Positions 37,678 to 55,848 of a stretch of DNA of 64,000 bases are shown in pieces. A program made the position numbers and the translations under genes. Origin of the DNA: a virus; IMG/VR virus record IMGVR_UViG_3300013132_005385, positions 1 to 64,000 of that record. One strand, 5' to 3'. The notes beneath the pieces were generated by a model, which was not told the origin of the DNA, did not search any database, and saw only the letters and a list, made by a program, of their open reading frames with translations. How positions within the stretch are numbered: the first letter of the stretch is position 1; the number at the start of each line of letters is the position of its first letter.

Positions 37678-38406
37678 ATGAAAATACTAAAGCCTTATTG
37701 GTTTCTAGAGAAGCCGGTCGATAAAGAACACAAATATTATGTGTTAATGGCTTATTTGCAATCCATTGAAAAGGACTTCTCCAATGGAGAATATGTTAAA
37801 CAGCTAACTAATGTACTTAGAATTCAAAAGGATCTTTGGAGCTTTAAGAACAAGGGTGTGCTATCAGTGAAATCAAATTCACATTTAACCGAAAGGGAAT
37901 TGGAAAAAACCCACGATCTCATAGATGATTTTTTACTTTCAGATGAAAGAGATGAAATAATAGAGGAGTCATTATCCACTATAGAAAAGTTTCTAGGAAA
38001 ACATGACTCAGTAATTAGAGAATATGATCAAATGGTAGAGGTAACTCATTCAGGATCTATAAATCAGACATGGGATAGGGGATTTCTCATTATCAGAAAA
38101 AACCTGGAGAGTATGCTTAGAATATTTTCTTGGAGTTTTTCTATTATTAAGATAGACGGGAATGAAAGCGTAGCCCTATTAATGACCGAGCTTCTTGATC
38201 CTGTGTGTGGATTTACCGAGGATGACAGAGAAGTTAAGAAGTTTTTAATACAGAATTTAAAATCTTCTATAATTAGTCCCAATGATGCTATTCTTTTTGG
38301 AAAAATCACTGAAGAGCTAGAACTGGATCTTGGTGTGGATCTATCCAAAGAAAAAGCTGTTGATATAATAGTGAAAAACTATAAGAAATCAATCGATCTC
38401 CTTTAG
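37678..38406 (+). CDS. Hypothetical protein, unknown (242 aa)
   Basis: Not recognised. The product is mostly helical with many Glu/Lys/Leu (LTERELEKTHDLIDDFLLSDE), and short apolar helices near SMLRIFSWSFSIIKI. No catalytic motif, signal peptide or coiled-coil repeat stands out. The gene is one of few on the plus strand and overlaps the convergent 180-aa gene by 18 bases at their 3' ends. Confidence 0.6.
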   Translation: MKILKPYWFLEKPVDKEHKYYVLMAYLQSIEKDFSNGEYVKQLTNVLRIQKDLWSFKNKGVLSVKSNSHLTERELEKTHDLIDDFLLSDERDEIIEESLSTIEKFLGKHDSVIREYDQMVEVTHSGSINQTWDRGFLIIRKNLESMLRIFSWSFSIIKIDGNESVALLMTELLDPVCGFTEDDREVKKFLIQNLKSSIISPNDAILFGKITEELELDLGVDLSKEKAVDIIVKNYKKSIDLL

Positions 38407-38931
38407 CAGTAGGAATTTTTCTAAATTTTCCCCCTCAATACCGAAGCTCCCTGGATTGAACTGATCAATCTTAAAGATTAGACTTTCTTCTTCCCCTCCC
38501 GCTTCTGTTGTCACAACCTCTATCTTAGTTTTCTTTCTGTTTATGTAAAAGTCGCACGATTTACCATCCGGCGAAATGTGGTCTCTAAGAAATAAAAAAG
38601 ATCCGCTAGGCATTTCTATCAATTCTGGAGCTCCCCCCGTTTCTATTACTTTTTCCACCTTAGATATAAATTCTTTTAGTGCTGTTGAATCTAGATCCCT
38701 TATCGAAGAAGCACCAAACGATTCTGCATATTTACTTATTATCTGAGAGATCATTTTCTTTATTTGTGGGGTTTTATCTCCATAAAAATGAATGTCATTT
38801 ATCAGATCATCTATAAAATATCCATCCCTAAGATCTTTCTTAGCAAATTTGAATGATATGGACTCCTTAAATTTTGACCCTGCACTGGAGCTTTCCAAAA
38901 TAAATTTTGAGAAGTTGGAGATTCTATTCAT
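38389..38931 (-). CDS. Probable internal head protein with T4-IP-like N-terminus (180 aa)
   Basis: The N-terminus MNRISNFSKFILESS resembles the capsid-targeting peptide of T4 IPII/IPIII (MKTYQEFIAEA) with a following LE/S that fits the gp21 cleavage pattern (L/I-x-E). The rest is helical, then has a short beta part (GSFLFLRDHI, CDFYINRKK). No enzymatic family is recognised. It overlaps the 138-aa gene by eight bases. Packaging into the head is a prediction from the N-terminus. Confidence 0.55.
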   Translation of the reverse strand: MNRISNFSKFILESSSAGSKFKESISFKFAKKDLRDGYFIDDLINDIHFYGDKTPQIKKMISQIISKYAESFGASSIRDLDSTALKEFISKVEKVIETGGAPELIEMPSGSFLFLRDHISPDGKSCDFYINRKKTKIEVVTTEAGGEEESLIFKIDQFNPGSFGIEGENLEKFLLLKEID

Positions 38932-39340
38932 GATTTGATTTCTTTTTTTGTAATTTTTGCGCCTCGGTATATGAAGAAAATCTAAAATCTTGAATATTCA
39001 GCGGCATTTCTATTTGTTCTAATAAATCTGGACCAAATTCAGGCCTATCCAAATTAGATATTCTGATTAAATTGGGATCAAATGCTGGCTCATAGGGCTT
39101 ACATTCCACTAATATTTCATCCTCTAGAGTTGAAAAAAATAGGCCATTTTTTAGAATAAAAAGATAATCTCCCAGATTTGCTGAAATTTTATTCCATACG
39201 GGTCTAAGAATTTTATATCCTCTATAAACAAAAGTTGTATCCTCATCACCTGTTCTTATCCACACATCAGTTTTGTGTGTGAATTTGTAATAGGATGGAG
39301 ATTCATAGGATTCCCCCGATAGCGATGAAAAATTACTCAT
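38924..39340 (-). CDS. Hypothetical protein, unknown (138 aa)
   Basis: Not recognised. Its sequence suggests a small beta-rich domain (VWIRTGDEDTTFVYRGYKIL, DYLFILKNGLFFSTL) and a charged tail. The gene starts behind an ATATATA element in the 52-base divergent gap and ends inside the start of the 180-aa gene. Confidence 0.55.
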   Translation of the reverse strand: MSNFSSLSGESYESPSYYKFTHKTDVWIRTGDEDTTFVYRGYKILRPVWNKISANLGDYLFILKNGLFFSTLEDEILVECKPYEPAFDPNLIRISNLDRPEFGPDLLEQIEMPLNIQDFRFSSYTEAQKLQKKKSNHE

Positions 39341-39342
39341 TA

Positions 39343-39354
39343 GGATATATATTC
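39343..39354 (-). promoter_or_regulatory. GAATATATATCC element before the 138-aa gene
   Basis: The element lies three bases before the ATG on the minus strand, very close for a promoter. It mirrors a similar element on the opposite strand 22 bases away. Confidence 0.3.
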
Positions 39355-39375
39355 AATGACAGAATCTGTTAAATA

Positions 39376-39388
39376 GATATATATAAAG
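39376..39388 (+). promoter_or_regulatory. GATATATATAAAG element before the 240-aa gene
   Basis: GATATATATAAAG lies on the plus strand just before the ATG at 39393. Together with the minus-strand element it makes a compact divergent control region of 52 bases. Confidence 0.4.
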
Positions 39389-39392
39389 ACAA

Positions 39393-40115
39393 ATGATAGA
39401 AATAATCAAATTTGAGGAATTTAGATCAAAAAACGCTCCTATAGACAGGGAGGTTTTTGAACATCAGGTCGAGTTCATAGAAAGCGAGATCAGAAGAATG
39501 CGCAGGGAGGGATTAAGTGCAGATGAAATTAACGAAAACGTATTTTCCGATATTCTTTCCGGACTAGGAGGGGGTTTTTCCGATATTGTTAAGGATTACG
39601 TTATAGATTGGGCAGCTCAAAAAATGGGAGTCCAAACCCATGACGAAGCTGGTCAACCAACCATATTTTATCAGATGATACGTAATATCATAGAAAAAAT
39701 GGAATGGACCAAAATAGGATCGTATTTCGGAAAAGGATCATGTTCTCATTGGGCTAAAGCTATCGTTTTGGGTCTTGCTGATACCATAGAAGAAAAAGCC
39801 ATAGCTGCTATTCTTGGTGCTTTAGGTATGCAAATAGATGAAAGGGGGGGATTAGCTACAACACTAGCATTGTCTATAAGACAAGGATTACAGAACGCGG
39901 TTAATAACACAGATTTCATGAAGAATATAGAAAAAATGATATCAGGTAAATTGTGTGGAGCTAATTTTGGTGACATACTAAGTGGTATAACCAGATCTGA
40001 TCAAGATAAAGTGACTGACCAGATTCAGAGAGCTGCAGAAGATGACCCAAATATACTTAAAAAAGTAGCAACATCCGGGATAATGGATGTATTAACAAAA
40101 ACAGTTGCACCATGA
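39393..40115 (+). CDS. Probable internal head protein with T4-IP-like N-terminus (240 aa)
   Basis: The start MIEIIKFEEFRSKNAP fits the [IK]..F.EF targeting-peptide pattern. The rest is mostly helical, with Gly-rich apolar helices such as DILSGLGGGFSDIVKDYVID and KAIAAILGALGMQ that might touch a membrane. No known enzyme family is seen. It is the first of three small plus-strand genes with similar N-terminal or near-N-terminal motifs and overlaps the next ATG by four bases. Confidence 0.55.
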   Translation: MIEIIKFEEFRSKNAPIDREVFEHQVEFIESEIRRMRREGLSADEINENVFSDILSGLGGGFSDIVKDYVIDWAAQKMGVQTHDEAGQPTIFYQMIRNIIEKMEWTKIGSYFGKGSCSHWAKAIVLGLADTIEEKAIAAILGALGMQIDERGGLATTLALSIRQGLQNAVNNTDFMKNIEKMISGKLCGANFGDILSGITRSDQDKVTDQIQRAAEDDPNILKKVATSGIMDVLTKTVAP

Positions 40116-40363
40116 ACGTAAAAAACGTAAAAAAAAGAGAAATTCTAGATTACAAGCAATTCATTAAGGTTGCTTCGGATCCATTCAATAAACAAAACTT
40201 GAGCAAGGAGGACAGAACGGGTTTTAATAAAATTAAACCGGAAAAGCCATATGCTTATGTTGGATTTCAAGACCCTATATTTAATAAGGTATCAAAAATA
40301 GATTATCCAGGGAAAGGAGCTACAGAAAGCGGGATCACTGCTGAATTTGGAACTAGCGAATAA
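40112..40363 (+). CDS. Small basic protein with F-motif near N-terminus (83 aa)
   Basis: Not recognised. A basic start (MNVKNVKKREILDYKQFIK) includes YKQFI, close to the QEFIA of T4 internal proteins. The remainder is polar with several Lys, Pro and Gly. It overlaps the end of the 240-aa gene by four bases and is followed 16 bases later by the acidic repeat gene. Confidence 0.5.
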   Translation: MNVKNVKKREILDYKQFIKVASDPFNKQNLSKEDRTGFNKIKPEKPYAYVGFQDPIFNKVSKIDYPGKGATESGITAEFGTSE

Positions 40364-40379
40364 AAAATAAAAAATAAAA

Positions 40380-40979
40380 ATGGGAACTAAAATATTATCA
40401 TGGGAGGAATTCAGTAAGGAAAAAAAACAGCCTGATGTACCTCTTTTTAGCGACGATAACATGGCTAAAATACCTACTGAAGAAATCGATGGAATTGAAG
40501 AGGAGGAGGACGAGGATGCCATAGATTCTGAAGAAGTAAAGACGTTAAAGAATCAAACCGATGTCCAATCGGACGAGGACGATACTGAGGAAGAAGATAC
40601 TGAGGAAGAAGATACTGAGGAAGAAGATACTGAAGAGGAAGACGAGGACGATACTGAGGAGGAAGATACTGAGGAAGAAGATACTGAAGAGGAAGACGAG
40701 GACGATACTGAGGAAGAAGACGATACTGAGGAAGAAGACGAGGACGATACTGAGGAAGAAGATACTGAGGAAGAAGACGAGGACGATACTGAGGAAGAAG
40801 ATACTGAGGAAGAAGATACTGAAGAGGAAGACGAGGACGATACTGAGGAAGAAGATACTGAAGAGGAAGACGAGGACGATACTGAGGAAGAAGACGAGGA
40901 CGACCAGACCGAAGATGAAGATAGCGCGGAATCTACGGAGGAGCCAGTGGTAATAAGATTTGATACCTTTTTAGATTAA
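40380..40979 (+). CDS. Extremely acidic Asp/Glu/Thr repeat protein (199 aa)
   Basis: The N-terminus MGTKILSWEEFSKEKK fits the targeting-peptide pattern. Residues ~65-180 are repeats of DTEEED and DEDD with almost no other residue, giving an exceptionally acidic, unstructured chain. The last 11 residues VVIRFDTFLD plus preceding P repeat an F..F motif seen inside two head proteins. It is preceded by A-rich sequence without Shine-Dalgarno. The same DNA read in another frame gives an RKK-rich chain, which is a by-product. A role in charge balance, DNA mimicry or as a partner of the RimK-type ligase is possible but untested. Confidence 0.7.
   Translation: MGTKILSWEEFSKEKKQPDVPLFSDDNMAKIPTEEIDGIEEEEDEDAIDSEEVKTLKNQTDVQSDEDDTEEEDTEEEDTEEEDTEEEDEDDTEEEDTEEEDTEEEDEDDTEEEDDTEEEDEDDTEEEDTEEEDEDDTEEEDTEEEDTEEEDEDDTEEEDTEEEDEDDTEEEDEDDQTEDEDSAESTEEPVVIRFDTFLD
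40571..40905 (+). repeat. Imperfect 15/18-bp tandem repeats encoding DTEEED/DEDD
   Basis: Repeats of GATACTGAGGAAGAA with GACGAGGAC spacers, in more than 15 partial copies. Near-identical DNA suggests recent expansion by slippage or recombination; copy number is likely to vary between close relatives. Confidence 0.85.
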
Positions 40980-40999
40980 AAAAATAAATATCGGCAGGA

Positions 41000-41028
41000 A
41001 AAAGCCTACCCTCGGTAGGCTTTTATTT
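41000..41028 (+). terminator. Rho-independent terminator after the acidic repeat gene
   Basis: AAAAGCCTACC pairs with GGTAGGCTTTT around a CTC loop, followed by TATTTTGTTT. The 11-bp stem and T-rich tail make a convincing intrinsic terminator on the plus strand. Confidence 0.9.
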
Positions 41029-41037
41029 TGTTTGCGA

Positions 41038-41045
41038 ATATATAC
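41038..41045 (+). promoter_or_regulatory. ATATATAC element before the RimK-like gene
   Basis: GAATATATACATTATG: the element ends four bases before the ATG at 41049. It fits the window's repeated pattern but the spacing is too short for an ordinary leader, so read-through or a nearby start should be considered. Confidence 0.25.
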
Positions 41046-41048
41046 ATT

Positions 41049-42533
41049 ATGCCTATAGAACAGTTATCGGATTTTAAATTTAAGGGAATAAAGGGTAAGG
41101 AAAAAATGCCAACCGTTATAATACTAACGGGTAGACTTGGCAAAAATGGAAAAGCCCCAACTACCGATAAGATAGCAAAAATTTGCGAGTCTAAAGGAGC
41201 TCCTTGTATAATAGTGAATTCTGAAAAGGGAGTGGTTGAAAAAACACAGAGCGGAATAGTTTTGGTTGGAAATAAGAACGAGAAGCTCAGAGAAATATAT
41301 CTAGATAACACTGTGGTTCTAGCCAGAAGAACAGCCATAAACAATAATGCCTCCAAGACATTTTTTAAAAAATTGGAAGAATTAGGACTTCCGTGCGTTA
41401 ATACATACGATGCGGTCAATCTTTGTGAGGATAAATTACAAACCACAAGGGCATTACAAAGAAACAAGATCCCTGTACCCAAAACAGCCTTGGTTTCTGG
41501 AGAAGATGATATTGACAAATCAGTTAAGGAGGTAGGAGGAAAATTCCCGATTGTTTGTAAATTTATCTCCGGTACTAAAGGTATTGGAGTATTCAGCGTT
41601 GATTCAAGACCTAGCTTAGTTTCTACCCTTCAAGCAATGTGGAATTTATCTCCATCAACGGAGATAGTTATGCAAGAGAAGATAGAAGCTGATTATGACC
41701 TTAGAATACATGTTTTAGGAACAAGTGATGGAATGGGAGGCAGAGAATATAAAGTTATTGCCGCTATGAAAAGATTAAAAATAGAGGGTGATTTTAGAAC
41801 TAATTTTTCATTAGGCGGAGAAATAGAAGCTGTTGAGCTTGACAAAAAAACAAAAAAGATAGCAATAGAATCAGCTAAGGCAGTCGGCTGTCTTTGGGCA
41901 GGAGTTGATATCATTATAGATAAAAATACTGGAGATCCATATGTTCTAGAAGTTAACTCTTCCCCTGGAACGGATGGCATAGAAAAAGCCACGGGGATGA
42001 ATATTAGCCAAATTATTGCCGACTTTTTGGCTAATAAAGATAACTGGCTAAAACCTAAAAAAATTAGCGGATTTAGAGAAATAGTAACGATCCCGGGTGT
42101 TGGAAGCTTTGTAGCAAAACTAGACACCGGAAACGGAGCAGCGTCATGTTCCTTGCATGCTGATACTGTTGATGAAGAAGATGGATACCTAATATGGAGC
42201 ATGGGGGGAGAAACATATAGAAATAAAATACTAGGAACCTCAAGAGCTGAAGTTGGAAAAAATCTTCATATTAGGCCAATCATATCTTTAGATGTTGAAT
42301 TTAATGGTGCCAATTATAGAAAAATAAGATTCTCTTTGGTCGATAGAACAGAAAAGAGTACCCCTGTACTATTAAACAGAGATTTTATGTCTCTCGCAGG
42401 AATAGTAGTTGATCCCTCAGAAGATTTTATATTAACAGATCGTCCCGATGGATATTCGCCAAAAGACGCCAAGGGTAATCCAAAAGCAGGAGTTGTTATG
42501 GGAGACGACTCAGATGAGGATAATGACAATTAA
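41049..42533 (+). CDS. RimK-like ATP-grasp ligase fused to RimK-associated aspartyl-protease domain
   Basis: A 494-residue protein. The first ~320 residues are a RimK-type ATP-grasp ligase: VNTYDAVNLCEDKLQTTRAL, PIVCKFISGTKGIGVFSV, DLRIHVLGT, KRLKIEGDFRTNFSLGG and VLEVNSSPG. RimK adds Glu residues to protein C-termini or makes peptide-like amides. The C-terminal part has VGSFVAKLDTGNGAASCSLH, then KIRFSLVDRTEKSTPVLLNR, matching the RimK-associated (retropepsin-like) protease family with LDTG as active-site Asp. The end is acidic (GDDSDEDNDN). ATG at 41049 is chosen because the alternative TTG lies in the terminator tail. Confidence 0.88.
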   Translation: MPIEQLSDFKFKGIKGKEKMPTVIILTGRLGKNGKAPTTDKIAKICESKGAPCIIVNSEKGVVEKTQSGIVLVGNKNEKLREIYLDNTVVLARRTAINNNASKTFFKKLEELGLPCVNTYDAVNLCEDKLQTTRALQRNKIPVPKTALVSGEDDIDKSVKEVGGKFPIVCKFISGTKGIGVFSVDSRPSLVSTLQAMWNLSPSTEIVMQEKIEADYDLRIHVLGTSDGMGGREYKVIAAMKRLKIEGDFRTNFSLGGEIEAVELDKKTKKIAIESAKAVGCLWAGVDIIIDKNTGDPYVLEVNSSPGTDGIEKATGMNISQIIADFLANKDNWLKPKKISGFREIVTIPGVGSFVAKLDTGNGAASCSLHADTVDEEDGYLIWSMGGETYRNKILGTSRAEVGKNLHIRPIISLDVEFNGANYRKIRFSLVDRTEKSTPVLLNRDFMSLAGIVVDPSEDFILTDRPDGYSPKDAKGNPKAGVVMGDDSDEDNDN

Positions 42534-43933
42534 GAAAGGAAGATATCCACTGCTTTTTTTCTATAGTCCATAGGATCTTCCACTATTTTAGAATTTTTAA
42601 GGGCAAGTTTTTTTCTATCAATAACACAATCGGGCACCAATCCTCTGAAAGTGTCTTTAAGAATCTTTTTATTTTTTCTTTCTTCAAAAGGCAGAGACAT
42701 TGCAAATCTCACAATGTCCAGATTTAAAAAAGGATTTCTAAGCTCTAGAGTGTGCGCCATTGAAAGTTTATCCAGTCTTGGAAGATGATAATATGTCAGT
42801 TCGTGAAATATATCGGATAATTGGGAGTCATACTCATTTATCCTTCTATATCCTCCAAACAGTTCGTCTGCACCGTCACCTGAAATGACTATTCTAGTCT
42901 TTGATCCTTTTTTAATAGCATCAAATAGATGATATTGGGGAATAACGCTACCAAGATCTACTGGACTTTCATTCCATTTCCGATAGACCTCTTTCAAAAA
43001 GTCTAAATTATTTGCATCATCTGTGTCCATTGAATATTTTAGCCTATGTGATGATATTTCCCAGTAATTTTCACACGCTTTTATGTGCTCCTCGTCTTCT
43101 CCATTTTCTATTGAATAGAATTGAACGTCTGCACCTAGCTTGAGAAGCAATCCACCAATTATAGATGAATCCAGGCCTCCAGACAGAAGAAGAGAAGTTG
43201 GATAGTTTTTAGAGAGAAGTCTTGCCCTTGTTGCAGACTCTAATTTCTCCCAAAGCCAGTCCATTTTAGCTTCGTAGTTTTCAAACTCTATGTCGAAGGC
43301 GCTAAAATTGTAATATAGCGCGCTTTTATGGGTAAATGATGGATTATCCAAGTTCCAATAAACAAATGTGTTATTGGGCAGTTTAGCGATGTTTTTGAAG
43401 GGGGTTTCATCCGATACCAAGTAGCCACTTTTTAAAACTCCGCTGATGAAGGCCCCATTAGAAATTTCATCCCCTTTTAATAGGCCTTTTATCTCTGAGC
43501 AGACTGATCCGTCGCTACTTTTATAAAGGGATTTTTTACCTAGCGGATCGGTGAAGGCATAGACATCTTTAGTTTTTGTGTCAACCAAAACAATCGCCCA
43601 AAATCCGTCCCACGAACAGATATGTGGCTTAAATATTGCCTCAAACATGGGTAATCCCCCAAAATGAAAATTTGAAAACAACTTTTGTAAATATTCAGTG
43701 TCCGAATCATATCCCGAAGGGTAATTAAATATCTCCCCATTAAAAAGCATATACCTGTTTTCCCCGATTGGAACTGGCTGAGACCATCCATCTCCATCTA
43801 GAGTCTGTATAGGAAGTCTATGATGACACATGGTTATTCCATTTTCCCTGATAGTCTTATGCTCAATACCTCTATGGGAGATAGATTTTATTTGGCTCTC
43901 GGAAAGGTCTTTTCCTATTAAGATCCCGCACAT
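42530..43933 (-). CDS. asnB: Asparagine synthetase-like glutamine amidotransferase
   Basis: A 467-residue protein starting MCGI, with Cys2 as the glutaminase nucleophile, FNGEIFNY in the amidotransferase domain, and SGGLDSS (251-257) as the ATP-pyrophosphatase loop, followed by ISGDGADELFGGYRR. It is shorter than E. coli AsnB (~550). The reaction is glutamine-dependent amidation, of aspartate or of another carboxylate. AsnB-like proteins also act in surface glycan clusters. Its stop overlaps the convergent RimK-like gene by four bases; its start overlaps the kinase gene by 16. Confidence 0.85.
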   Translation of the reverse strand: MCGILIGKDLSESQIKSISHRGIEHKTIRENGITMCHHRLPIQTLDGDGWSQPVPIGENRYMLFNGEIFNYPSGYDSDTEYLQKLFSNFHFGGLPMFEAIFKPHICSWDGFWAIVLVDTKTKDVYAFTDPLGKKSLYKSSDGSVCSEIKGLLKGDEISNGAFISGVLKSGYLVSDETPFKNIAKLPNNTFVYWNLDNPSFTHKSALYYNFSAFDIEFENYEAKMDWLWEKLESATRARLLSKNYPTSLLLSGGLDSSIIGGLLLKLGADVQFYSIENGEDEEHIKACENYWEISSHRLKYSMDTDDANNLDFLKEVYRKWNESPVDLGSVIPQYHLFDAIKKGSKTRIVISGDGADELFGGYRRINEYDSQLSDIFHELTYYHLPRLDKLSMAHTLELRNPFLNLDIVRFAMSLPFEERKNKKILKDTFRGLVPDCVIDRKKLALKNSKIVEDPMDYRKKAVDIFLS

Positions 43934-44481
43934 ATTAATTTATCAATTAGTTTTAGAAAATTTTCTTCGGATTGCGGGTCGAAGTGATTGCTGAATTGGT
44001 GTACTCTGATTCCCGCATCCGACATATAATCGGAAACCTTTTCAAATATTGAAAGCTCCTTTAGCCTTTCCTCGTTGTTTTCTAAATGATCCCAATGATC
44101 TTTATTTTTTCTAAATTTCATCGGAACATCCGATTTGATCAATATGATATCCACATCGTCAAATAATCCGCTAGAGATCATAAAATCTATTTCTGAGAAA
44201 ACATGGGCGTAGCTTACTCTTTCCTGATATATTCCCCATACCTCGTTGGTTAATATACCTCGATCTACTATCAGATTGTTTCCGAGGAATCCCTTAGAAT
44301 AGAGCTGATGCAGCATTATTTCCTTTCCCAGACCTAAAGAATGTGTTGTTTTTCCGTTAGTGGGAAGATTAAGCCCGCCATAAACTCCAGTAAAATCAAA
44401 CTTGAATTTTGACTGTGTAATTTTATCGGAAAGATGGGTTTTTCCTGAATTTCTTGGTCCTTCTAAAAGAATAAGGGGCAT
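43918..44481 (-). CDS. P-loop nucleoside/nucleotide kinase-like protein
   Basis: A 187-residue protein with Walker A LLEGPRNSGKTHLS (5-18), VDRGILTNEVWGIYQER as the DR. nucleoside-kinase motif and a late Lys/Arg-rich lid (KFRKNKDHW). This pattern resembles thymidylate or deoxynucleoside kinases, but the substrate is not clear. It is co-transcribed with the AsnB-like gene. An AT-rich leader (CATAAAATAGGATT) precedes it. Confidence 0.65.
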   Translation of the reverse strand: MPLILLEGPRNSGKTHLSDKITQSKFKFDFTGVYGGLNLPTNGKTTHSLGLGKEIMLHQLYSKGFLGNNLIVDRGILTNEVWGIYQERVSYAHVFSEIDFMISSGLFDDVDIILIKSDVPMKFRKNKDHWDHLENNEERLKELSIFEKVSDYMSDAGIRVHQFSNHFDPQSEENFLKLIDKLICAGS

Positions 44482-44535
44482 AATCCTATTTTATGATTAT
44501 ACCCCAAATTTAATAAAAATTCCGAATTTATTATC

Positions 44536-46734
44536 TTATAATGATTGGGAAAACTTTTTAATTACTTTTTTGATCTCTTCTGTGTTTGTCCATTCATCAG
44601 ATAGATCATCAAAAAGATTGCTTGACTTTCCTTTAGAGTTTAAAAAACTTTTATATCCGCTGGCGAGTAGCTTAATCTCTTCTGGCTTCCATTTTAAAAG
44701 CTCGTTATATAGCTTTTTATCTCTAAAGCTTGAACCATAAATATCCCTGTAAAGAGCGGTTATTTTTTTAGCATACTTATCGGGAGTTATTTTAGAAGCT
44801 AAGACTGAAAGCTTATCTGTTGATCCATCATTGCCTTTAAAAGAGTCATTTTCAGTGTCATAATATCCCATAACTTTGTCCCATAATCTGAGAGCCACCC
44901 CATTTTCATAGAATCTCAATCCTGGACAAGTTGCTATGGCCATATTTGTTCCTCCGTTATAGCCTTCGTTCTTTTTAACACCCTTTATTTTAACCAATTC
45001 CTGAACCTTTTTCTCTCTGTTGAAATCGCCTTTAACTTTGTTTACTGCGTCCTCAACGGCTTTTTTAATATCATCCGATGATATTTTTTTATCCGTTCCT
45101 GACTCTTTAGCAGCGGACTTTACTTCACCTTTGTTGACCTCTTCTGTTTTTCCTCTTGATCCCCCAGATTCTACAGTTTTCTTGAAAGCATCTCCATTAA
45201 AAGCTTCTAGGATTCCTTTATTTAACCTTTCAAAATCTCTAAAAGTAAGGACAGGAGATTTAGATTCCGTGAGTTTTTCGGTCTCTATTTTGTTTACTAA
45301 TTCTGCAGTTATGTCGGAAGATGAGTCTTTTAAATCAAATCCCGCCTTTAACCCTTGTATAATTCCAGCAGTAGACGATCCAAAAAGTCCATCCGCTCCA
45401 TATTTAGAAAATTTCTTCCAAATATCTGTTTCTGTTACCGCCTTTACATTTTTAAATTTGTTCAATATCAATTTTTGAAAAGCCTCAACATCTGGATTTT
45501 TCTTTCCGCCGGATTCTGATCTTTTAATTGGTTTTTTAAGATCTATTTCGGATTTAGTCTCCTTCTTTTCTCCCTCTCCTTCTTTCTTGGATGCTTCTGC
45601 TGCTTTTAGGATCTCCTCTGTTGCTGCTCCCCTTTCCTCATCGCCCTTATTTTTTAATTCCACTGCCTTGGAAAGAATCTCAGCCACTTTGGAATACTTA
45701 AGACTTTTAAGATAATTTATTCTTTCGTCTTTTATTTTGGAATCAAAATTGGATGAGCTCTCTTCAAGTTCCGATTTAATCTCAGTGTAAAGATCATTAT
45801 ATTTAGAGATAAGATCATCATCTTTGATCTTTCTTCCGTCTTCTTTTCTAGTTGTTTTTGCATCATTCATAAGCTCATTAGCTCTGTTAAGAAGCTGCTT
45901 GAATTTCTCCTCGTATTGACCTGGAGTTTTTAACTCCGGAGATGCTGAACTGTAGGTAGCTGCCTGATCTATTTTTGATTGAATTTGCGAGATCATGGTC
46001 TTACAGTTGTTTATAAAAGAAACCATATTTCCTTTCTTAGAAAATCTCTCCGCCCTTTTGCTCTCCAACGATTCAATAATAAATAATGACTCTTTTACCT
46101 CGCCTTTATTGGAAGAAAGAATCTTGATGGTTTCATCTAAAATGGATGCTATCTTATCACCTAAGAACTTCTTGGTTGATTCCGAGTCAAATTTATCGGG
46201 ATCTTGTTTTTTGAGCTCGTCTAGTGCCTGCTTATAAAGATCCATAGAAAGTTCATAGTTCTTAAAAGCCTGTTCAAATCCCTTACCCCCCGGATCCTTT
46301 ATTGCTCCCGCAAGAAAGTCTGTAAAAGCATTAGAGATCTTATCCATCACCGATTTTGGTGCTGAATCTGACTTAAGTCCCTGTAAAGCTGCATTAAATT
46401 TTGAACTAAACTCATCTTTAAATTTACCAGCAGGAAAAGAAACAACTGTAGATGTCATTATTGCATATGCACCAAAGATGATTTCGCTTAGAATTTTCTC
46501 CAAATCACTAATTTTCTTCTCGGCGGGTGCGGTAGAAGTTTTGGTTGTCTCTTCCTTTTTAGCCGTGGAGTCTCCTGGTTTTGCTGCTGTTTCTGGCTTA
46601 GCAGGATCAGCAGGCTTTTTCTCTGCCCCCGCTGCTTCCTGTTCATTCAAAGATGAATTCAAAGTCTGATATCTTTGAGCCTTTTCAAGAAGCTGATTAA
46701 ATAGCGGGTTTTGTATAAGATCTTGTTTTCTCAT
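44536..46734 (-). CDS. Large internal head-type protein with PG_binding-like domain (732 aa)
   Basis: The protein has a helical N-terminus with LNEQEAAG, then a low-complexity Ala/Pro/Lys/Glu linker (residues ~30-75). A long charged helical part follows. Residues ~408-463 contain DVEAFQKLILNKFKNV and GADGLFGSSTAGIIQGLKAGF, like a PG_binding_1 domain that binds peptidoglycan. Around residue 493 it has SPVLTFRDFERL, an internal F..F motif shared with other head proteins. The end is helical and rich in Lys. There is no signal peptide. Its place after gp21-, gp23- and IP-like genes suggests that it is packaged or is a core protein, but this is inferred. Confidence 0.55.
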   Translation of the reverse strand: MRKQDLIQNPLFNQLLEKAQRYQTLNSSLNEQEAAGAEKKPADPAKPETAAKPGDSTAKKEETTKTSTAPAEKKISDLEKILSEIIFGAYAIMTSTVVSFPAGKFKDEFSSKFNAALQGLKSDSAPKSVMDKISNAFTDFLAGAIKDPGGKGFEQAFKNYELSMDLYKQALDELKKQDPDKFDSESTKKFLGDKIASILDETIKILSSNKGEVKESLFIIESLESKRAERFSKKGNMVSFINNCKTMISQIQSKIDQAATYSSASPELKTPGQYEEKFKQLLNRANELMNDAKTTRKEDGRKIKDDDLISKYNDLYTEIKSELEESSSNFDSKIKDERINYLKSLKYSKVAEILSKAVELKNKGDEERGAATEEILKAAEASKKEGEGEKKETKSEIDLKKPIKRSESGGKKNPDVEAFQKLILNKFKNVKAVTETDIWKKFSKYGADGLFGSSTAGIIQGLKAGFDLKDSSSDITAELVNKIETEKLTESKSPVLTFRDFERLNKGILEAFNGDAFKKTVESGGSRGKTEEVNKGEVKSAAKESGTDKKISSDDIKKAVEDAVNKVKGDFNREKKVQELVKIKGVKKNEGYNGGTNMAIATCPGLRFYENGVALRLWDKVMGYYDTENDSFKGNDGSTDKLSVLASKITPDKYAKKITALYRDIYGSSFRDKKLYNELLKWKPEEIKLLASGYKSFLNSKGKSSNLFDDLSDEWTNTEEIKKVIKKFSQSL

Positions 46735-46745
46735 TTTTTTATTTT

Positions 46746-46997
46746 TTATTTTTTTTCCAGGTCCTCCATTTTTTTAACGGCCACAGATTTTTTTTGGAGT
46801 GCAGCTACTTTCTTTTGTAGTTCCATAGCTTGTTGACGCAAAGACTCTGATTGGGTTATTTCTTTCTTATTGACTCTGTCTTTAAGATAAGAAACAGCAA
46901 GATCGGCTTTAGATATTTCCTTATCTATATTTTGGATCTCGAGGTCTATCGATGATTCCTCGTTCAGTAAAAAATCATTAATTCTCTTGAGCTGCAT
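46746..46997 (-). CDS. Small coiled-coil head-core-like protein (83 aa)
   Basis: The start MQLKRINDFLLNEESS resembles the targeting peptide, with LNE before a polar residue as a cleavage-like site. The rest is a single charged coiled coil. The 279-aa gene overlaps its start by 20 bases. In T4, small core proteins gp67/gp68 lie beside the protease and capsid genes; this could be an equivalent, but similarity is only in size and style. Confidence 0.55.
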   Translation of the reverse strand: MQLKRINDFLLNEESSIDLEIQNIDKEISKADLAVSYLKDRVNKKEITQSESLRQQAMELQKKVAALQKKSVAVKKMEDLEKK

Positions 46998-47817
46998 ACT
47001 TTCTTTTACTTACTTTTTCTACCCTATATATCTTATCCCTAGTATCTTTGTGCTCCTTTCTATATGAGGATTCTATTTCTCTAATCTCCTTCCTAATGAC
47101 AGATTCAGCATACACATCATCTTCCTTTCTAGCTCTTGTCAATTGTTTTCTAAGGTTTAGAGTTGCATTGTCCATTAGCTTTTGAAGAGACCAGGTGTAT
47201 TTCTTTAGTGATCTCTCAAGGGAATCTAGTTCCCTGGTGGAGATGCTTTGTATGTGTGATTCAAATTCTCCGGTAGACATAGATAAAACTCTTTCAACCT
47301 CAGGATCAACATCTATAGGGGATGAATCAGGTAAGGAGTAAATAGATGAATCATCCTTCATTTTTTTATCCGCTATTGCGGTCATTCTTTCTAGGTCAGA
47401 TGTCAATTTTCTAAGCGTTTCATCCGATTCATATCCCTTTGATTTTTTTAGGGTCTCTTCGGCAGCTTCTATTTCTATTTTTGCCAATTTAGATTGGAAG
47501 TGACTTAGAAGATCCGATTTGTTTCCTATGATTTCATATGCTTCTTTTTTCAGATTCTCCGCCTCTCTATTCTTTGCTAGCTGATAATTACTAAGAGATT
47601 TTTTAAGCATCTCCACTTCAAAAGATGATTCTTCTCCCGATTTGTACAGGTCGAAAATTTCTTTTTTTATCTTACCTGACTCCTTAACAAAATCCATCCT
47701 GGATTCTTTAATTTTATTAAGTATAGAGTCCAATTTTGATTTTTTACCCATAATAGATGAGAACAATCCGCTTAGAATTCCCTCACTTACAAACTCTTCA
47801 AATCTGTATATCTTCAT
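46978..47817 (-). CDS. Coiled-coil internal head-type protein with T4-IP-like N-terminus (279 aa)
   Basis: MKIYRFEEFVSEG is the closest match in this window to T4 IPII/IPIII MKTYQEFIAEA, including the probable cleavage site after Glu12. The remainder is almost entirely charged coiled coil with several LxE-like sites. It starts one base inside the stop of the 326-aa gene. A scaffold-like core protein or a packaged internal protein would both fit. Confidence 0.6.
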   Translation of the reverse strand: MKIYRFEEFVSEGILSGLFSSIMGKKSKLDSILNKIKESRMDFVKESGKIKKEIFDLYKSGEESSFEVEMLKKSLSNYQLAKNREAENLKKEAYEIIGNKSDLLSHFQSKLAKIEIEAAEETLKKSKGYESDETLRKLTSDLERMTAIADKKMKDDSSIYSLPDSSPIDVDPEVERVLSMSTGEFESHIQSISTRELDSLERSLKKYTWSLQKLMDNATLNLRKQLTRARKEDDVYAESVIRKEIREIESSYRKEHKDTRDKIYRVEKVSKRKYAAQEN

Positions 47818-48797
47818 TATGATACTTTAACTTCCGTCATTTTAATTTTACCTCCGTCCTTGGCTTTAAGAAGAAATTTCACTACCTTTTGATTCTCCTC
47901 GTTAAGATCTAGAAATTTTTCGACCATATCTGGTGAATATTCTCCTCCTGATATTTCTTCCACAACTTGCTTGTGTAGGGAGTCCAATTTTTTAACTGCA
48001 TCTTCTATTTTTCCTCCCGATGTTTTTATCTGTTGGAATTTTTTAGTGAAAACAGACAACATATCATCACTTATAGGATGTATATTAGCTGCTTCTCTTT
48101 GAGCATCTTCCTCTGCTTTTTTAGCGAGCTCTCTTGATTTATCCACATCTTTACTTATCTTATCAAAATCAACACCAAAGAATTTTTCAAGCTGATCAAC
48201 ATCTTCTTTATACATCTTGCTGAGTTCCTTTGATTTATTATATCTGTCGATCTGAGTTTCTAAAACATCAGAAGCTCTCTGTACGTTGAAATACTTCTTT
48301 TTTCTGTTACTGTCCTTTGTTAGGGATTTAACCTTTTCTTCCAATGAATTAAATATGGTATCGTGGGTTTTTACGAGTTCTTTTAGGGTGTTATTTAGCA
48401 TTCTTCTGGAATCAGTTATTGCCTTTAGCATTTCATCTCTCTTTGGATTTGTGCTGTCTTTTTCAAGTGCTTTTTGCTTTTTTATCAACCCGTAAAAATC
48501 CTTGAATATAGTGAATTCTTCCTTATTAAACTTTAATTCCTGTTCTTTCATCTGGGTTAAGGCTGTCTTTAACTTGCTGATATCCCCACCAATTTTGCTG
48601 CTGATAAAATTTATGATGGAATCTTTTAATCCCTCATTAATTAAAGATAGCTCAGCTGCAAGGTCATCTGTGTTAGCTGATTCAAATAAAGGCCCCTGGT
48701 ACTTTCTTAGGACGTTAATTGCAGCTTTGATATCACCTTTACTTTCCATAAGGGCTTTTTCTGCTGCTTCAAATTTATCAAAGGAATCGATTATCAT
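47817..48797 (-). CDS. Coiled-coil internal head-type protein with several LxE sites (326 aa)
   Basis: N-terminus MIIDSFDKFEAAEKALMESK. Within 60 residues come three putative gp21-type sites: LME/S, LFE/S and INE/G. The remaining sequence is a long charged helix bundle. It is the first gene after the strong terminator of the capsid gene and has its own GGATATATAG element. No enzyme motif is visible. It is probably a scaffold/core or packaged protein. Confidence 0.6.
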   Translation of the reverse strand: MIIDSFDKFEAAEKALMESKGDIKAAINVLRKYQGPLFESANTDDLAAELSLINEGLKDSIINFISSKIGGDISKLKTALTQMKEQELKFNKEEFTIFKDFYGLIKKQKALEKDSTNPKRDEMLKAITDSRRMLNNTLKELVKTHDTIFNSLEEKVKSLTKDSNRKKKYFNVQRASDVLETQIDRYNKSKELSKMYKEDVDQLEKFFGVDFDKISKDVDKSRELAKKAEEDAQREAANIHPISDDMLSVFTKKFQQIKTSGGKIEDAVKKLDSLHKQVVEEISGGEYSPDMVEKFLDLNEENQKVVKFLLKAKDGGKIKMTEVKVS

Positions 48798-48903: not shown

Positions 48904-50625
48904 TTAGACGATACCACCAGTTGGCATTGAAACGTACAATGTCAAGTACATGGACTGTGGGTGGTGACCAGCCTCTACAAGCGCATATCTTGATTTGACA
49001 GCGATTTTTGGAGACATAGTACCTTCTGAGATAGTCTGGATAGATTCAGCCATCATGTAAGGCATGAATTTCAATCCTGGCTCATCATCAGCACCTTTTC
49101 TACCAACAAGCACTCTAGTGTCGTTGAAGTTCATGTTTTGATCAACATAAACGGTCATACCAGCAAGAGAACCTACAGGGTACAAAGTACCGTTGTTCTG
49201 AGTAAGAGTGTTAGTGAAAGGAGCGAAAGTGAACTGGCTGATATCTTGCAACGCAGACGCAACTTGTGAGTTGGTAACGATGAAGTTAGCAGGACCTCTT
49301 CTTCCTCTGTTAGCTACTACGTTAGCAGCTGCAAGGACTCTAGAGAACAATCTTCTTTGTAGAGTAGATTGGTTTTCGAAAGAAGTACCTGAAGGACCAG
49401 CTGGGATAGCCATTGTGAATCCAGTGTTGTCTTTTCCGATGTAAGCAGATGTAACAGAAGCACTACCAGACAACTGAAGATTAAGGTTAAGGTTTGTTCC
49501 CTCTGTGTTCTTAAACTCGTTGTGGTTTGACCAACCAAGTGCAAAAGCTCTTGAAAGGATGTGCTTGTTGATCGCCTGAGAAACCTCGTTAACGAGAGCG
49601 TTTTCGATCATAGAAACTACGTCAATACCGAATTGCTTGTTAAGGTCTTGGATTTGCTCAGTTGTTACAGAAGCAGCAACTTGGAAAGTACCAGCTTCTA
49701 CGAACTTAGTGAAAGTAGAAAGACCAAGTGACTTGTAGTAAGTGCTTTCTCCTATTCCTCTGCTCATTGGATCATAAACCTGAGTTCCGTCTACGTAAGG
49801 ACCTTGGAAATTAGCGGTATTGTTAACTCCAGCACCACTAAATCCTTGGATGTGATCTTCTAAGGTTTTAACCAATTGAGCAGCTGCAGATACGAAAGAT
49901 AATGCTGAACCTGTAGATCCAGAAGAAGCTGTAGTATCGTTATCCAGCGCGGCTCTAATTTCAGAGTTAGCAGTAACTGCATCAGCAATAGAATCGTTAT
50001 TTGTTAAAGCTGTAACTTTGAAGATAGGGAATCCGTCGATACGAGAATATCCTACGAATGCACCTTTAAGAGTTGGGTCTGTACCTGCGGTTGTTCCTGT
50101 TACGAAGATAACATATTGAGTACCAACAGTTAAAGTACCAAATACCGGAGATGCAGCAGATACTGGAACTTTGATTAAATCTGGGGAGTTCGCAGTGAAA
50201 GGTGAAGTTGTATCACTTCCTGTAAGTTTTCCACCTGCATAAACATAGTCAAGGTAGGAAAGAACTCCAGTTGGACCGCTCATAGGAATAACCGGAACGA
50301 TGTCAAAACCGATAGTTTTTGCAGCTACCTGAATAGCTAGAGGAAGAAGGGATGGGAATTTGTCGCCAGATCCAAGACCAGTTCCTGAATATGTTCCACC
50401 AGCGTAGAATCCAGCAGGACCTTGTCCAAGATTTCCGGCAGCAGTGATTGCGCCCATACCATTGAGTACGCCAAGAGAGTTATACGCTCCGGCAGACTCG
50501 TTAAGAGAGTGGAAGTGGCAGTAAGTTGAAAGCCATTCTACTTTACCTCTCTCAGTGAGACCTGTTTTGCTCTCGATTATCGGAGCCCAGGTTTCATAAA
50601 TTTCATGTTGATTAATTAGTTGCAT
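48904..50625 (-). CDS. gp23: Major capsid protein, T4 gp23-like
   Basis: A 573-residue protein of gp23 size. The N-terminus contains YETWAPIIES, typical of gp23, and FHSLNESAGAYNS, a likely maturation site after Glu43 (T4 gp23 is cut at Glu65). IGFDIVPVIPMSGPTGVLSY corresponds to the gp23 IPMxGPTG motif. Later come MSRGIGESTYYKSLGLSTFTK and an Ala/Asn-rich P-domain with FIVTNSQVASALQDI. Its coding DNA looks richer in G+C than that of its neighbours, probably from selection for efficient translation. It is followed by a strong terminator. Confidence 0.93.
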   Translation of the reverse strand: MQLINQHEIYETWAPIIESKTGLTERGKVEWLSTYCHFHSLNESAGAYNSLGVLNGMGAITAAGNLGQGPAGFYAGGTYSGTGLGSGDKFPSLLPLAIQVAAKTIGFDIVPVIPMSGPTGVLSYLDYVYAGGKLTGSDTTSPFTANSPDLIKVPVSAASPVFGTLTVGTQYVIFVTGTTAGTDPTLKGAFVGYSRIDGFPIFKVTALTNNDSIADAVTANSEIRAALDNDTTASSGSTGSALSFVSAAAQLVKTLEDHIQGFSGAGVNNTANFQGPYVDGTQVYDPMSRGIGESTYYKSLGLSTFTKFVEAGTFQVAASVTTEQIQDLNKQFGIDVVSMIENALVNEVSQAINKHILSRAFALGWSNHNEFKNTEGTNLNLNLQLSGSASVTSAYIGKDNTGFTMAIPAGPSGTSFENQSTLQRRLFSRVLAAANVVANRGRRGPANFIVTNSQVASALQDISQFTFAPFTNTLTQNNGTLYPVGSLAGMTVYVDQNMNFNDTRVLVGRKGADDEPGLKFMPYMMAESIQTISEGTMSPKIAVKSRYALVEAGHHPQSMYLTLYVSMPTGGIV

Positions 50626-50637
50626 GATATTTTAGAG

Positions 50638-52638
50638 TTATTTTTTGAATTTCTTTTCCAATTCAGCTGCTATGTTTGTCAGATAATCTGATCCATAACC
50701 TTTAGCTGGCTGTGATTGGTTCTGAGATTCGTCTAATTTTTGAACGTTAGATGATTGGTTTCTAAATCCTCTAGTAGCCCAGAAGTTATTGATCTGATAA
50801 GGGGTTTCAAGTTTATAAAACTTGCTTTGAGCAATAACCGAAGCTTTTTGAGTTTGGTTTAAGCTTTCCCAAATTGGAACGATATCCTTTGGCATCATAT
50901 CTAGGAATTTTTCGCCAGATTTAACTTGTTCAGTTAGAGCGGATCCCATAATTTGAATTACATCCGTACCCGAATTGTAATTCTGCTCGTTTAGAGCCTT
51001 AACGACCTTGTGTTTTTCGGCCTCGTTGAGAGATAAAAATCCTTTTTTAGTCTGATCGTCGACCAGTTTTAGGAAAGAATATTTATTCTCATTTATGATC
51101 TCATCTGTTTTTTGTTTGTTAACAGATTCTATGAGTTGATCTACTTTTTCAGTTAATGAAGAGTAATCTCCAGAAAGTTTTGAGGTTCTTTTTCCTTCTT
51201 TAACAGATTCTGAAACCTCTTCAACCAAAGAATTTTCTTTGGACTTTTTACCTTTATTTAAAGATTCTGCTACATATTCAGTGAATCCTATATTAGTAGA
51301 AAGTTTTTCAGCTAAATAGTCAGAATAGGAAATAGTTCTATCAAGGTTTTCTGCGATATACTCAGAGTATGAAATGTTTTTGTCTAAGTTTTCAGCAAGA
51401 TACTCAGAGTATGAAATATTCTTATCAAGGTTTTCTGCGATATACTCAGAGTATGAAATGTTTTTGTCTAAGTTTTCAGCAAGATACTCAGTGTAGGAAA
51501 TATTTTGGTCTAAACTCTCAGCAAGATACTCAGAGTATGAAATATTTTTATCCAAGTTCTCAGCAAGGTATTTGCTATAAGAAATATTTTTATCTAAATT
51601 TTCTCCCAAATACTCAGAGTAGGAGATGTTATTATCTACGTGCTCTGCTATGTACTTAGAATACGAAATTGCCTTATCTAGGTTTTCAGCTAAATACTTG
51701 TTATATGATATGGATCCTTCTAGATTCTCAGCAAGATAATCACCATATTTAATAGCAGTTTCTAAATTTTCAGCAAGATAATCTGCGTATTTTTCTAGCT
51801 TCGCCACTCTCGCTGCTAACTTGGAATCTGTTCCTGCTTGTGAACTTTCGTTTAGTGGAGCAGTTTTTAATTTGGCAACCTGACTTTTGATACCCTCCAT
51901 TTCTTTTTTCAAAATGAGAGAATATTCATTAAGCTCTTCGGCTGTAACAAAATTTTGGTCCATATTTTTTGGTTTATTTGAGCTTTCTTTTAGTAGTTTC
52001 TCTATCTTTTCTACGTCTTTGATTCTATATATCTGAACGTTTGAATTTTTCTCCAGCCCCATGCTTTCATTGATATTGGAGAGAGACGATATAATAGAAG
52101 ATTCCATTGATCCTTGAAGAGCCTGCATTCCTAAGCTTTCATATACTCTTTCAAGTTCAGCTGCTTTTCCAAATCCGCCATCAGCAACAAGATCATAAGT
52201 AAAGATCTTTTTAATCTCTACCTTTTTATTCTCTTGTACTGATCCAGCTGCTCTGGATGAAATAGAGATAGGAATTCCTGCATCAACTAGGCTTTTAGCA
52301 ATTTTACCAGCAGGGGTATCGAGCAATTTCACTCTAATTCTTACTGTTCTGTCACCTTTGTTATATTTAAGATCCTGTACTATGTGTGAGATATTCTTAA
52401 GTGAAACATCGAATTCTTTAGGGTGATCCAATTCACCAACTAATCTTTTGGAATTAATTTTATCTTGAAGATATTCCATATGAGGAAGGTATTCTTGCTC
52501 CTCATATATTCTTCTGTTTTCGTTCTCTTTCCCAAAAACAGCAGCTACACCTTCAAGGATGTAATCTTTGCCGCTTTTTTTAGCAGTCAAATTAGAGCTT
52601 GACTTTTCGAGAATCAGTATGTAATCCTTATCTTTCAT
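50638..52638 (-). CDS. gp21: Prohead protease (gp21-like) fused to scaffold-like repeat region
   Basis: A 666-residue protein. Residues 1-~185 match the T4 gp21 serine-type prohead protease: RRIYEEQEYLP, LVGELDHPKEF (His72), LLDTPAGKIAKSLVDAG and ISISSRAAGSV (Ser127/128). In T4 gp21 is ~212 residues and stands alone. Here it continues into a coiled-coil region with 13 tandem 14-residue units of the form SYSEYLAENLDKNI, then a basic, Gln-rich end. T4 gene order is 21-22-23; the C-terminal part may therefore be a fused gp22-like scaffold. An AAAGATATATAATC element precedes it, and the capsid gene follows after 12 bases. Confidence 0.85.
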   Translation of the reverse strand: MKDKDYILILEKSSSNLTAKKSGKDYILEGVAAVFGKENENRRIYEEQEYLPHMEYLQDKINSKRLVGELDHPKEFDVSLKNISHIVQDLKYNKGDRTVRIRVKLLDTPAGKIAKSLVDAGIPISISSRAAGSVQENKKVEIKKIFTYDLVADGGFGKAAELERVYESLGMQALQGSMESSIISSLSNINESMGLEKNSNVQIYRIKDVEKIEKLLKESSNKPKNMDQNFVTAEELNEYSLILKKEMEGIKSQVAKLKTAPLNESSQAGTDSKLAARVAKLEKYADYLAENLETAIKYGDYLAENLEGSISYNKYLAENLDKAISYSKYIAEHVDNNISYSEYLGENLDKNISYSKYLAENLDKNISYSEYLAESLDQNISYTEYLAENLDKNISYSEYIAENLDKNISYSEYLAENLDKNISYSEYIAENLDRTISYSDYLAEKLSTNIGFTEYVAESLNKGKKSKENSLVEEVSESVKEGKRTSKLSGDYSSLTEKVDQLIESVNKQKTDEIINENKYSFLKLVDDQTKKGFLSLNEAEKHKVVKALNEQNYNSGTDVIQIMGSALTEQVKSGEKFLDMMPKDIVPIWESLNQTQKASVIAQSKFYKLETPYQINNFWATRGFRNQSSNVQKLDESQNQSQPAKGYGSDYLTNIAAELEKKFKK
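51250..51797 (-). repeat. 13 tandem 42-bp repeats (SYSEYLAENLDKNI) in the protease-scaffold gene
   Basis: Direct coding repeats in near-perfect 14-residue register, two heptads each, with little variation in the middle copies. The period of 14 is expected for a coiled coil and not for a CRISPR or regulatory array. Confidence 0.88.
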
Positions 52639-55086: not shown

Positions 55087-55848
55087 TTATTCATTATATA
55101 TTTTCGAATAGGCCTTAGAAATTAGATCTATTAGTTTTTCTATATATCCTTCATTCCTTAACTTTTTAAAGGCTAGATTTTCCACTGAAAATTCCCCGCT
55201 GTTAGCTAGTCCCTCTTTTCTTGATTTTAAAATTCTAGACTTTACCCTCTGCGTGTGATCATATAATTCCCTGGCTTCTTCCTCTGAGGATACTGATGTT
55301 GAAAGCTTATTTTCCAGTTCGTGTATATCATTTACGAAGCCATGAAATTTCACGTCAACGTCTCTGTAGTCTATTTGGGGATCTGTTGGTTTTGGGACTC
55401 TGATCCATTCATTACGTAGGAGTGAAAAAAGTCCAGAAGATGTGTGTGGTTCTTCTATATCCTGCACGTAAAGCTCAACGTCATGAGATCTGATAATCAC
55501 ATCATGCCTTAGATTCCAGATAAACCTCTGTCCATCTAATCCCTTTTTAACTAGTTCCACATTAGGATCTACCCTAGAAAAATCTATTAGAACGTGAATA
55601 TCAAGGTCTGAATATTTGGTCCAATTATAGTTTGCTAATGACCCCGTTAATTGTATATCAGCTATAGGAACATCGACTTTCATATCGCCAAAAAAATCTT
55701 TGGCTATTTCCAATAATTTTTTTCTTACCCCCTGGTCAAATTCGCCATCTTCAGTCCAGAAAGAAGAATTCAATTCTTTTTTATAGAATTCATCCCTGAC
55801 CTCTTCCTGTTCTATGATCCATGATTCTAATTTTGCTATATGTGACAA
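55087..55848 (-). CDS. Pol-beta-type nucleotidyltransferase
   Basis: A 253-residue protein with LTGSLANYNWTKYSDLDIHV (GS at 69-70, Asp81 and Asp83) and DVELYVQD as third acid strand. These are the catalytic parts of the minimal nucleotidyltransferase fold. Such proteins transfer NMP to proteins, RNAs or small molecules; the target is unknown. The first residues IAKLESWIIEQEE resemble a targeting peptide slightly. The start is TTG at 55848, since no ATG precedes the conserved part; a GGATATATAG element lies 16-25 bases upstream. Confidence 0.75.
   Translation of the reverse strand: MSHIAKLESWIIEQEEVRDEFYKKELNSSFWTEDGEFDQGVRKKLLEIAKDFFGDMKVDVPIADIQLTGSLANYNWTKYSDLDIHVLIDFSRVDPNVELVKKGLDGQRFIWNLRHDVIIRSHDVELYVQDIEEPHTSSGLFSLLRNEWIRVPKPTDPQIDYRDVDVKFHGFVNDIHELENKLSTSVSSEEEARELYDHTQRVKSRILKSRKEGLANSGEFSVENLAFKKLRNEGYIEKLIDLISKAYSKIYNE
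55092..55102 (-). promoter_or_regulatory. AATATATAATG element before the 796-aa gene
   Basis: The element lies inside the last codons of the nucleotidyltransferase gene, nine bases before the next ATG, on the minus strand. Confidence 0.35.

Follow-up and report, generated by a model that had tools for sequence, protein, structure and literature searches.

The question raised by this locus is why several genes with unrelated products, clustered near the head genes of a virus, begin with a similar short peptide. The locus lies in the window analysed here, the first 64 kb (positions 1 to 64,000) of the 119,741-base virus record IMGVR_UViG_3300013132_005385. An earlier note had likened the starts of six of its genes to those of the internal proteins IPII and IPIII of phage T4, and had read the products as head-packaged effectors or core proteins. 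The peptides (called tags below) are very probably T4-type capsid-targeting sequences (CTSs), which the prohead core would recognise and the S77 protease encoded at 50638-52638 would remove. This reading is carried by features that were observed directly: the conservation of the peptide, its position, its enrichment, its co-occurrence with cut-site sequences and its placement beside head genes.

The six open reading frames were recovered with the starts given in the earlier note, and an N-terminal [FYWL]xx[FYW]-like peptide was found in them and in further genes. The carriers in the window are listed with the original six first; a slash marks the putative cut, and genes are named below by their first coordinate:

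47817-48797, minus strand: 326-amino-acid (aa) predicted prohead-core protein, coiled-coil-like, the first gene after the capsid gene; tag MIIDSFDKFEAAEKALME/S at 48744-48797, minus strand
46978-47817, minus strand: 279-aa predicted core protein; tag MKIYRFEEFVSE/G at 47782-47817
46746-46997, minus strand: 83-aa protein; tag MQLKRINDFLLNE/E at 46959-46997
38389-38931, minus strand: 180-aa orphan; tag MNRISNFSKFILE/S at 38893-38931
39393-40115, plus strand: 240-aa helical protein; tag MIEIIKFEEF
40380-40979, plus strand: 199-aa very acidic protein (62% D+E); tag MGTKILSWEEF
40112-40363, plus strand: 83-aa protein; motif REILDYKQF at residues 9-17 (40136-40162)
55087-55848, minus strand: polymerase-beta-type nucleotidyltransferase (PF01909, 5.2e-5); tag MSHIAKLESWIIE/Q at 55810-55848

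Outside the window, the 92-aa gene 114847-115125 (MKHLYEYESFVQNTNESFW) carried the tag too, with same-tag orthologues in two of the relatives' records. The span 38389-48797 to which the carriers had been assigned holds the original six and 40112, and others (the nucleotidyltransferase and the 92-aa gene) lie beyond it. The gp21-like protease named in the earlier note was identified as an S77 protease, and the head genes were:

48904-50625, minus strand: major capsid protein of the gp23 family (PF07068, 9.5e-41; 140.9 bits, passing the cut-off of 24.4)
50497-50625, minus strand: capsid propeptide, ending SLNE/SAG (HSLNE before SAG in 56 of 57 homologues)
50638-52638, minus strand: prohead protease with a scaffold-like region (phrog_207, 6.2e-33; PF03420, 3.5e-9, 36.9 bits, above the curated cut-off of 27), its S77 domain at 52222-52560

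That the shared peptide is non-random was borne out by its positional enrichment and by its ranks in profile scans, held-out ranks included. Among 467 non-redundant proteins from 72 relative loci, [FYW]xxF began at residues 5-8 at a rate of 34.8 per 1000 positions, against 4.4 past residue 40; the rates in the phage's own genome were 22.5 and 5.3 (10 carriers, P=1.6e-4). A position-specific scoring matrix (PSSM), trained on the relatives only, held information at I/V (-3), L (-2), F/Y/L (0), D/E (+2) and F/W (+3). Over the 33,619 positions of the own proteome, its five best scores went to 39393, 40112, 38389, 40380 and 47817, and 46978 came eighth; the orphan 38389 had no homologue in the training set. 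When each gene's homologues were removed from training, the ranks were 1 (39393), 6 (40112), 3 (38389), 7 (40380), 16 (47817) and 6 (46978). The motif was not equally common in other genes of the genome: N-termini with a score of at least 9 were found in 6 of the 23 genes in 38-60.2 kb and in 0 of the 88 elsewhere (P=4.5e-5), all six being located at 38.4-47.8 kb, and 0.4 were expected at this threshold from residue-shuffled N-termini.

The peptide was also conserved. In most relatives the same gene order was kept (capsid, 326, 279, 83, large protein, kinase, amidotransferase, 240, 83), and along it the protein bodies diverged and the tag stayed, with relatives' versions such as MKNLPSFNDF, MTLKFKEWDSLNEA (279-aa family), MLKFKEFVINEE (the slot of 46746), MSRIIKNFDSF...NE and REILDFKKFL. 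In six families the motif was present in 83-100% of orthologues (nulls 1-25%), and in most neighbouring non-tag families, e.g. those of a 242-aa gene, the amidotransferase and the protease, it was near or below the null. Motif and following site were found together in 33/38 relatives of the 326-aa protein (motif null 13%) and in 25 of 30 members of the nucleotidyltransferase family. The 46746 tag, only 141st in the PSSM ranking, is backed by its syntenic slot and by the motif with its site in 31/32 relatives (motif null 1%). In the 240-aa family, at ~20% identity, the motif and a following NE were among the best-kept N-terminal features, and in the alignment INE/N at residues 46-48 of the own protein was in register with the family's NE column. 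The motif of 40112 was kept in all 26 relatives.

The earlier note had seen LxE-type sites after several of the peptides. The sites proved to be [LI]xE and above all [LI]NE, whose rate was 10.7 per 1000 within 30 residues downstream of the motif and 0.62 elsewhere in those proteins (17-fold), and which was mostly followed by A, S, G or D; this matches the near-invariant end of the capsid propeptide. The Glu lay mostly 3 or 4 residues past the second aromatic, +3 being the T4 spacing, within a range of 2 to ~29 residues. A cut site was clear in four own genes (38389, 46746, 47817 and 55087) and plausible in two (46978 and 39393), and was not seen in 40112 and 40380. In those rows of the nucleotidyltransferase alignment that have a full N-terminus, the tag and then [LIVF]xE stand ahead of the conserved enzyme start FYxDELNPxFW.

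The T4 sequences confirmed the start MKTYQEFIAE/A for ipII and ipIII, and gp23 has FGSFLTE/A. T4 gp21 cleaves after [L/I]xE, and residues 4 and 7 of the T4 tag serve targeting, 8 and 10 processing (PMC9026906). Like the CTSs of T4 IPI-IPIII, the present tags are N-terminal peptides of 10-19 residues with aromatics three apart (Y4 and F7 in T4) and a Glu cut shortly after; in both systems a gp21-family protease and a gp23-family capsid occur in one phage, and unrelated bodies stand behind one tag. The likeness asserted earlier thus holds at residues 4 and 7. It does not extend to the whole peptide: the docking consensus is looser, the site is [LI]NE and not IAE, the spacing to the cut varies, copies of the tag lie within large core proteins as well, and the protease is fused to repeats. 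Moreover, T4 has a handful of tagged proteins, unlike the relatives with up to tens, recognisable enzymes included. The matrix trained on these phages also picked T4 gene 61.1 (L172:18966-19130), which starts MKTFKEFIKED; by this resemblance, its product is a possible unrecognised T4 internal protein.

The tag was used most widely in the large relatives. Tagged genes numbered 29 of 382 in a 348-kb record (1.6 expected, 1.5 by residue shuffling; following site in 25/29), 18 of 304 in a 270-kb record (1.3 expected) and 27 of 487 in 400 kb of a 430-kb record (2.5 expected), with smaller excesses in other relatives (10 vs 0.7, 9 vs 0.5 and 5 vs 1.3). The strict T4-spaced pattern [FYW]xx[FYW][LIVMFA]xE exceeded expectation in three large relatives (13 vs 2.3, 9 vs 2.2 and 12 vs 3.3). 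Tagged proteins in relatives included an adenylate kinase (PF00406, 3.1e-40) whose domain starts at residue 27, downstream of the tag, a RimK-like ligase (PF08443), a GDPD phosphodiesterase, proteins with SLT, CHAP and, weakly, cell-wall hydrolase domains, and a peptidoglycan-binding protein. Counting near-identical sequences, tag and [LI]NE were present in 39/39 RimK-like and 8/8 adenylate kinase homologues found, and tag and [IV]xE in 17/17 CHAP homologues found. Given these enzymes and the own nucleotidyltransferase, the absence of any known function, as stated in the earlier note, does not hold for the whole set of tagged proteins.

A parallel was found in Sphingomonas (Sphingobacterium) phage PAU, whose capsid protein shares 34% identity. 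Its called proteins begin with MKT[LI]xxLYE or a close variant in 17/264 cases, against 0.03 in shuffles; they are mostly hypothetical (L088, L239-L242), several run to LNE/A or LNE/S, and many are encoded near the protease and capsid genes. Three of the five proteins that the depositors labelled internal capsid proteins are tagged (P=0.002), and a fourth, gp270 (MKGLHNLYEAKLNEA), falls narrowly off the pattern. The annotation was probably not derived from the tag, since one of the five lacks it. The PAU capsid protein is shortened from 585 to 520 residues according to N-terminal sequencing (PMC5646251), and this processing point lies within one residue of ALME/N. Unlike the present phage, PAU has a consensus without the FxxF core and encodes protease and scaffold as separate genes.

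In the mechanism that we propose, a short stretch at the N-terminus, in which two hydrophobic and usually aromatic residues stand three positions apart ([FYWL]xx[FYW]), would dock its protein, during prohead assembly, on a core made of the protease-scaffold fusion and coiled-coil proteins. The activated S77 protease would then cut after [LIV]xE, with Asn favoured before Glu, cleaving the propeptide of the capsid protein, the repeats of the scaffold region and the tags themselves; the tags and the pieces of the core would exit, and the tagged bodies would remain in the head with the DNA, from where cargo candidates could enter the next host cell. Docking and cutting may be separable, because the 40112 family keeps the motif without the site. 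The sequence tests support the earlier note's reading in general, and the choice between effectors and core proteins, left undivided there, can be narrowed: the 326-, 279- and 83-aa (46746) carriers are more likely core builders than effectors, and the nucleotidyltransferase and the 240-, 180- and acidic 199-aa proteins are the candidates for cargo.

It is unlikely that the peptide does no more than extend the site which the prohead protease recognises and cuts, with head entry through other contacts and no targeting. The same aromatic-xx-aromatic-hydrophobic-x-Glu string does recur at the scaffold repeats (YSEYLAE) and at the T4 gp23 cut site; however, the distance from motif to Glu ranges from 2 to ~29 residues, just 2 of the 26 relatives of 40112 have a site behind their fully conserved motif, and in T4 targeting and processing fall on different residues. 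Targeting to another destination, e.g. the replication compartment, the sliding clamp or a membrane, with the following [LI]NE incidental, is less probable still. Short aromatic peptides commonly dock to other hubs, and the tagged proteins of large relatives include enzymes encoded away from head genes; against this, [LI]NE is enriched behind the tag and is identical with the capsid propeptide end, the own carriers lie beside the capsid gene, and the PAU tagged set takes in annotated internal capsid proteins. Least credible of all is chance or common descent, in which the carriers would be paralogues that diverged but kept their ancestral N-terminus, or the motif would simply come with amphipathic first helices. 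A profile search connected the 326- and 279-aa proteins to each other, and some carriers may therefore be paralogous; yet the bodies behind the tag are unrelated (nucleotidyltransferase, adenylate kinase, RimK-like, CHAP, coiled coils), the shuffling expectations for the own genome and the 348-kb relative are far below the numbers observed, and the negative control crAss001 gave 1 N-terminal match against 0.3 expected.

Several points weigh against capsid targeting as the function of the tags. Docking, cutting, presence in virions and injection of the tagged proteins are steps that we infer from sequences. No cleavage site was found near the motif of 40112, nor a clear one close to the tag of the 199-aa protein. 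The strict T4-spaced pattern was not significantly enriched in the own genome (2 vs 1.1 expected). Because the motif had been used to seed the training set of the PSSM, the clean tests are the held-out and own-genome ones; gene starts were the output of a simple caller. In full-genome controls of the large relatives, tagged genes were scattered far from the head cluster, and proximity to head genes is therefore no general rule. For PAU, the record leaves the basis of the internal capsid protein label unstated, and the tag consensus differs.

A tentative extension, which we consider doubtful, is that the tag represents a stand-alone copy of the scaffold repeat. The protease is fused to a scaffold-like region of 13 repeats of 14 aa (ISYSEYLAENLDKN, ~51247-51807), with 9-14 copies in relatives, and the repeat string YSEYLAE resembles both the T4 tag (YQEFIAE) and the tag of one relative, MKKYSEFITEN. 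With 9-14 ISYSEYLAEN copies in the fusion and one in each cargo protein, the cargo would mimic the scaffold, assemble together with it and be cleaved by the same protease at the equivalent position. In a repeat-profile search, 23 of the 100 top matches fell in residues 4-16 (4.6 expected); this is suggestive only, because among 40 profiles with permuted columns one or more came as high as 21. If mimicry were true, tens of enzymes would be loaded into one head, including murein hydrolases, adenylate kinase, a glutamate-ligase-like enzyme and a nucleotidyltransferase.

Internal copies of the motif were found in two large head proteins:

44536-46734, minus strand: 732-aa head protein; N-terminal peptide of another kind, NPLFxxLL...SLNE/Q; internal motif VLTFRDFERLNKGILE/A at ~45205-45252
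52693-55083, minus strand: 796-aa head protein; N-terminal peptide NPVFESM; internal motif VLRFDSFAQTIS at ~53719-53766

Motif and site were conserved inside such proteins (VLSFSDFSEVLSE/A and VFSFTDFIKESGINE/N; own VLRFDSFAQTIS), and an alignment of 25 homologues of the 796-aa protein showed a conserved xxE site after the motif; to judge from these strings, it is as if the segment were an excisable linker. The two proteins have in common a second type of N-terminal peptide, NPxxESL...E, and peptidoglycan-binding-like segments (recognised by eye). The capsid propeptide holds the similar string WAPIIES, and the 796-aa protein has a glycine-rich hydrophobic stretch.

Other known systems share parts of this scheme. 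In phage P1, the N-terminal 30 residues of DarB are enough to bring a reporter to the capsid; unlike here, the Dar proteins have no common consensus and there is no separate scaffold (PMC9024508). Many head proteins of phiKZ and SPN3US (inner-body and ejection proteins) are likewise cut after Glu by a gp21 relative, and targeting by propeptides has been proposed (PMC5694885), but these propeptides are often longer than 100 residues and no short consensus across many proteins has been reported. Freshwater Bacteroidetes phages encoding bS21 have the same kind of capsid and protease neighbourhood; in the parts of the published description consulted, the neighbouring hypothetical proteins are left unexplained and no tag is mentioned (PMC9723584). 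The own record fits these phages in having a bS21-like gene (105172-105357 of the record, outside the window; recognised by eye from the sequence), which lacks a clear head tag.

The principle is known from T4; what is new is its scale, the enzymes among the putative cargo, the copies of the tag inside proteins and a protease that bears repeats. A search of the open-access literature did not find the tag scheme described for this phage group. As a predictor of head cargo, the tag would single out, among the hypothetical proteins of many Bacteroidota phages, those to be tested for presence in virions and perhaps for injection, and would extend the T4 mechanism to phages with ~5-30 tagged proteins each, enzymes among them. 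Likeness to the scaffold repeat would give a simple explanation of targeting, and such peptides could possibly serve to package proteins for delivery to Bacteroidota.

The host probably belongs to the Bacteroidota, because the named-phage relatives of the capsid protein are the Lak phages of Prevotella, phages of Tenacibaculum, Flavobacterium and Chryseobacterium, and PAU; megablast against named phages gave no match. No family could be assigned with confidence from Pfam or PHROGs to the tagged 326-, 279-, 240-, 180- and 83-aa proteins. The model of the 240-aa protein (predicted local distance difference test, pLDDT, 72.7) found no relative in structure searches of PDB and BFVD. That of the nucleotidyltransferase (pLDDT 87) weakly matched aminoglycoside adenylyltransferases and MntA-type enzymes (best E 2e-3, template modelling score ~0.25). 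The 199-aa acidic protein has a tag-like string, VVIRFDTFLD, also at its C-terminus (40947-40976), where relatives end in ILNPAFNRFFN.

Directly after the 199-aa gene, 41049-42533 encodes a RimK-like ATP-grasp ligase with a C-terminal zinc-protease-like domain, whose homologue is head-tagged in larger relatives; polyglutamylation of a head protein is a possibility. The RimK-like homologue of Yersinia phage YerA41, annotated as a structural protein (virion proteome: PMC7354516), was rejected as support for the tag: its start lacks the tag, and it therefore at most backs the presence of RimK-like enzymes in virions. An amidotransferase (asparagine-synthase-like) and a small P-loop kinase-like gene (42530-44481) lie within the head-core cluster and are syntenic in most relatives. 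Relatives also encode a second, short gp23-family protein (~300 aa) distant from the capsid gene (G008:73823-74635, G001:129580-130146, G003:178465-179139 and G002:180999-181247). Finally, collagen-like GPTG repeat proteins are encoded at two sites, 60740-64000 of the window and 119460-119741 of the record.

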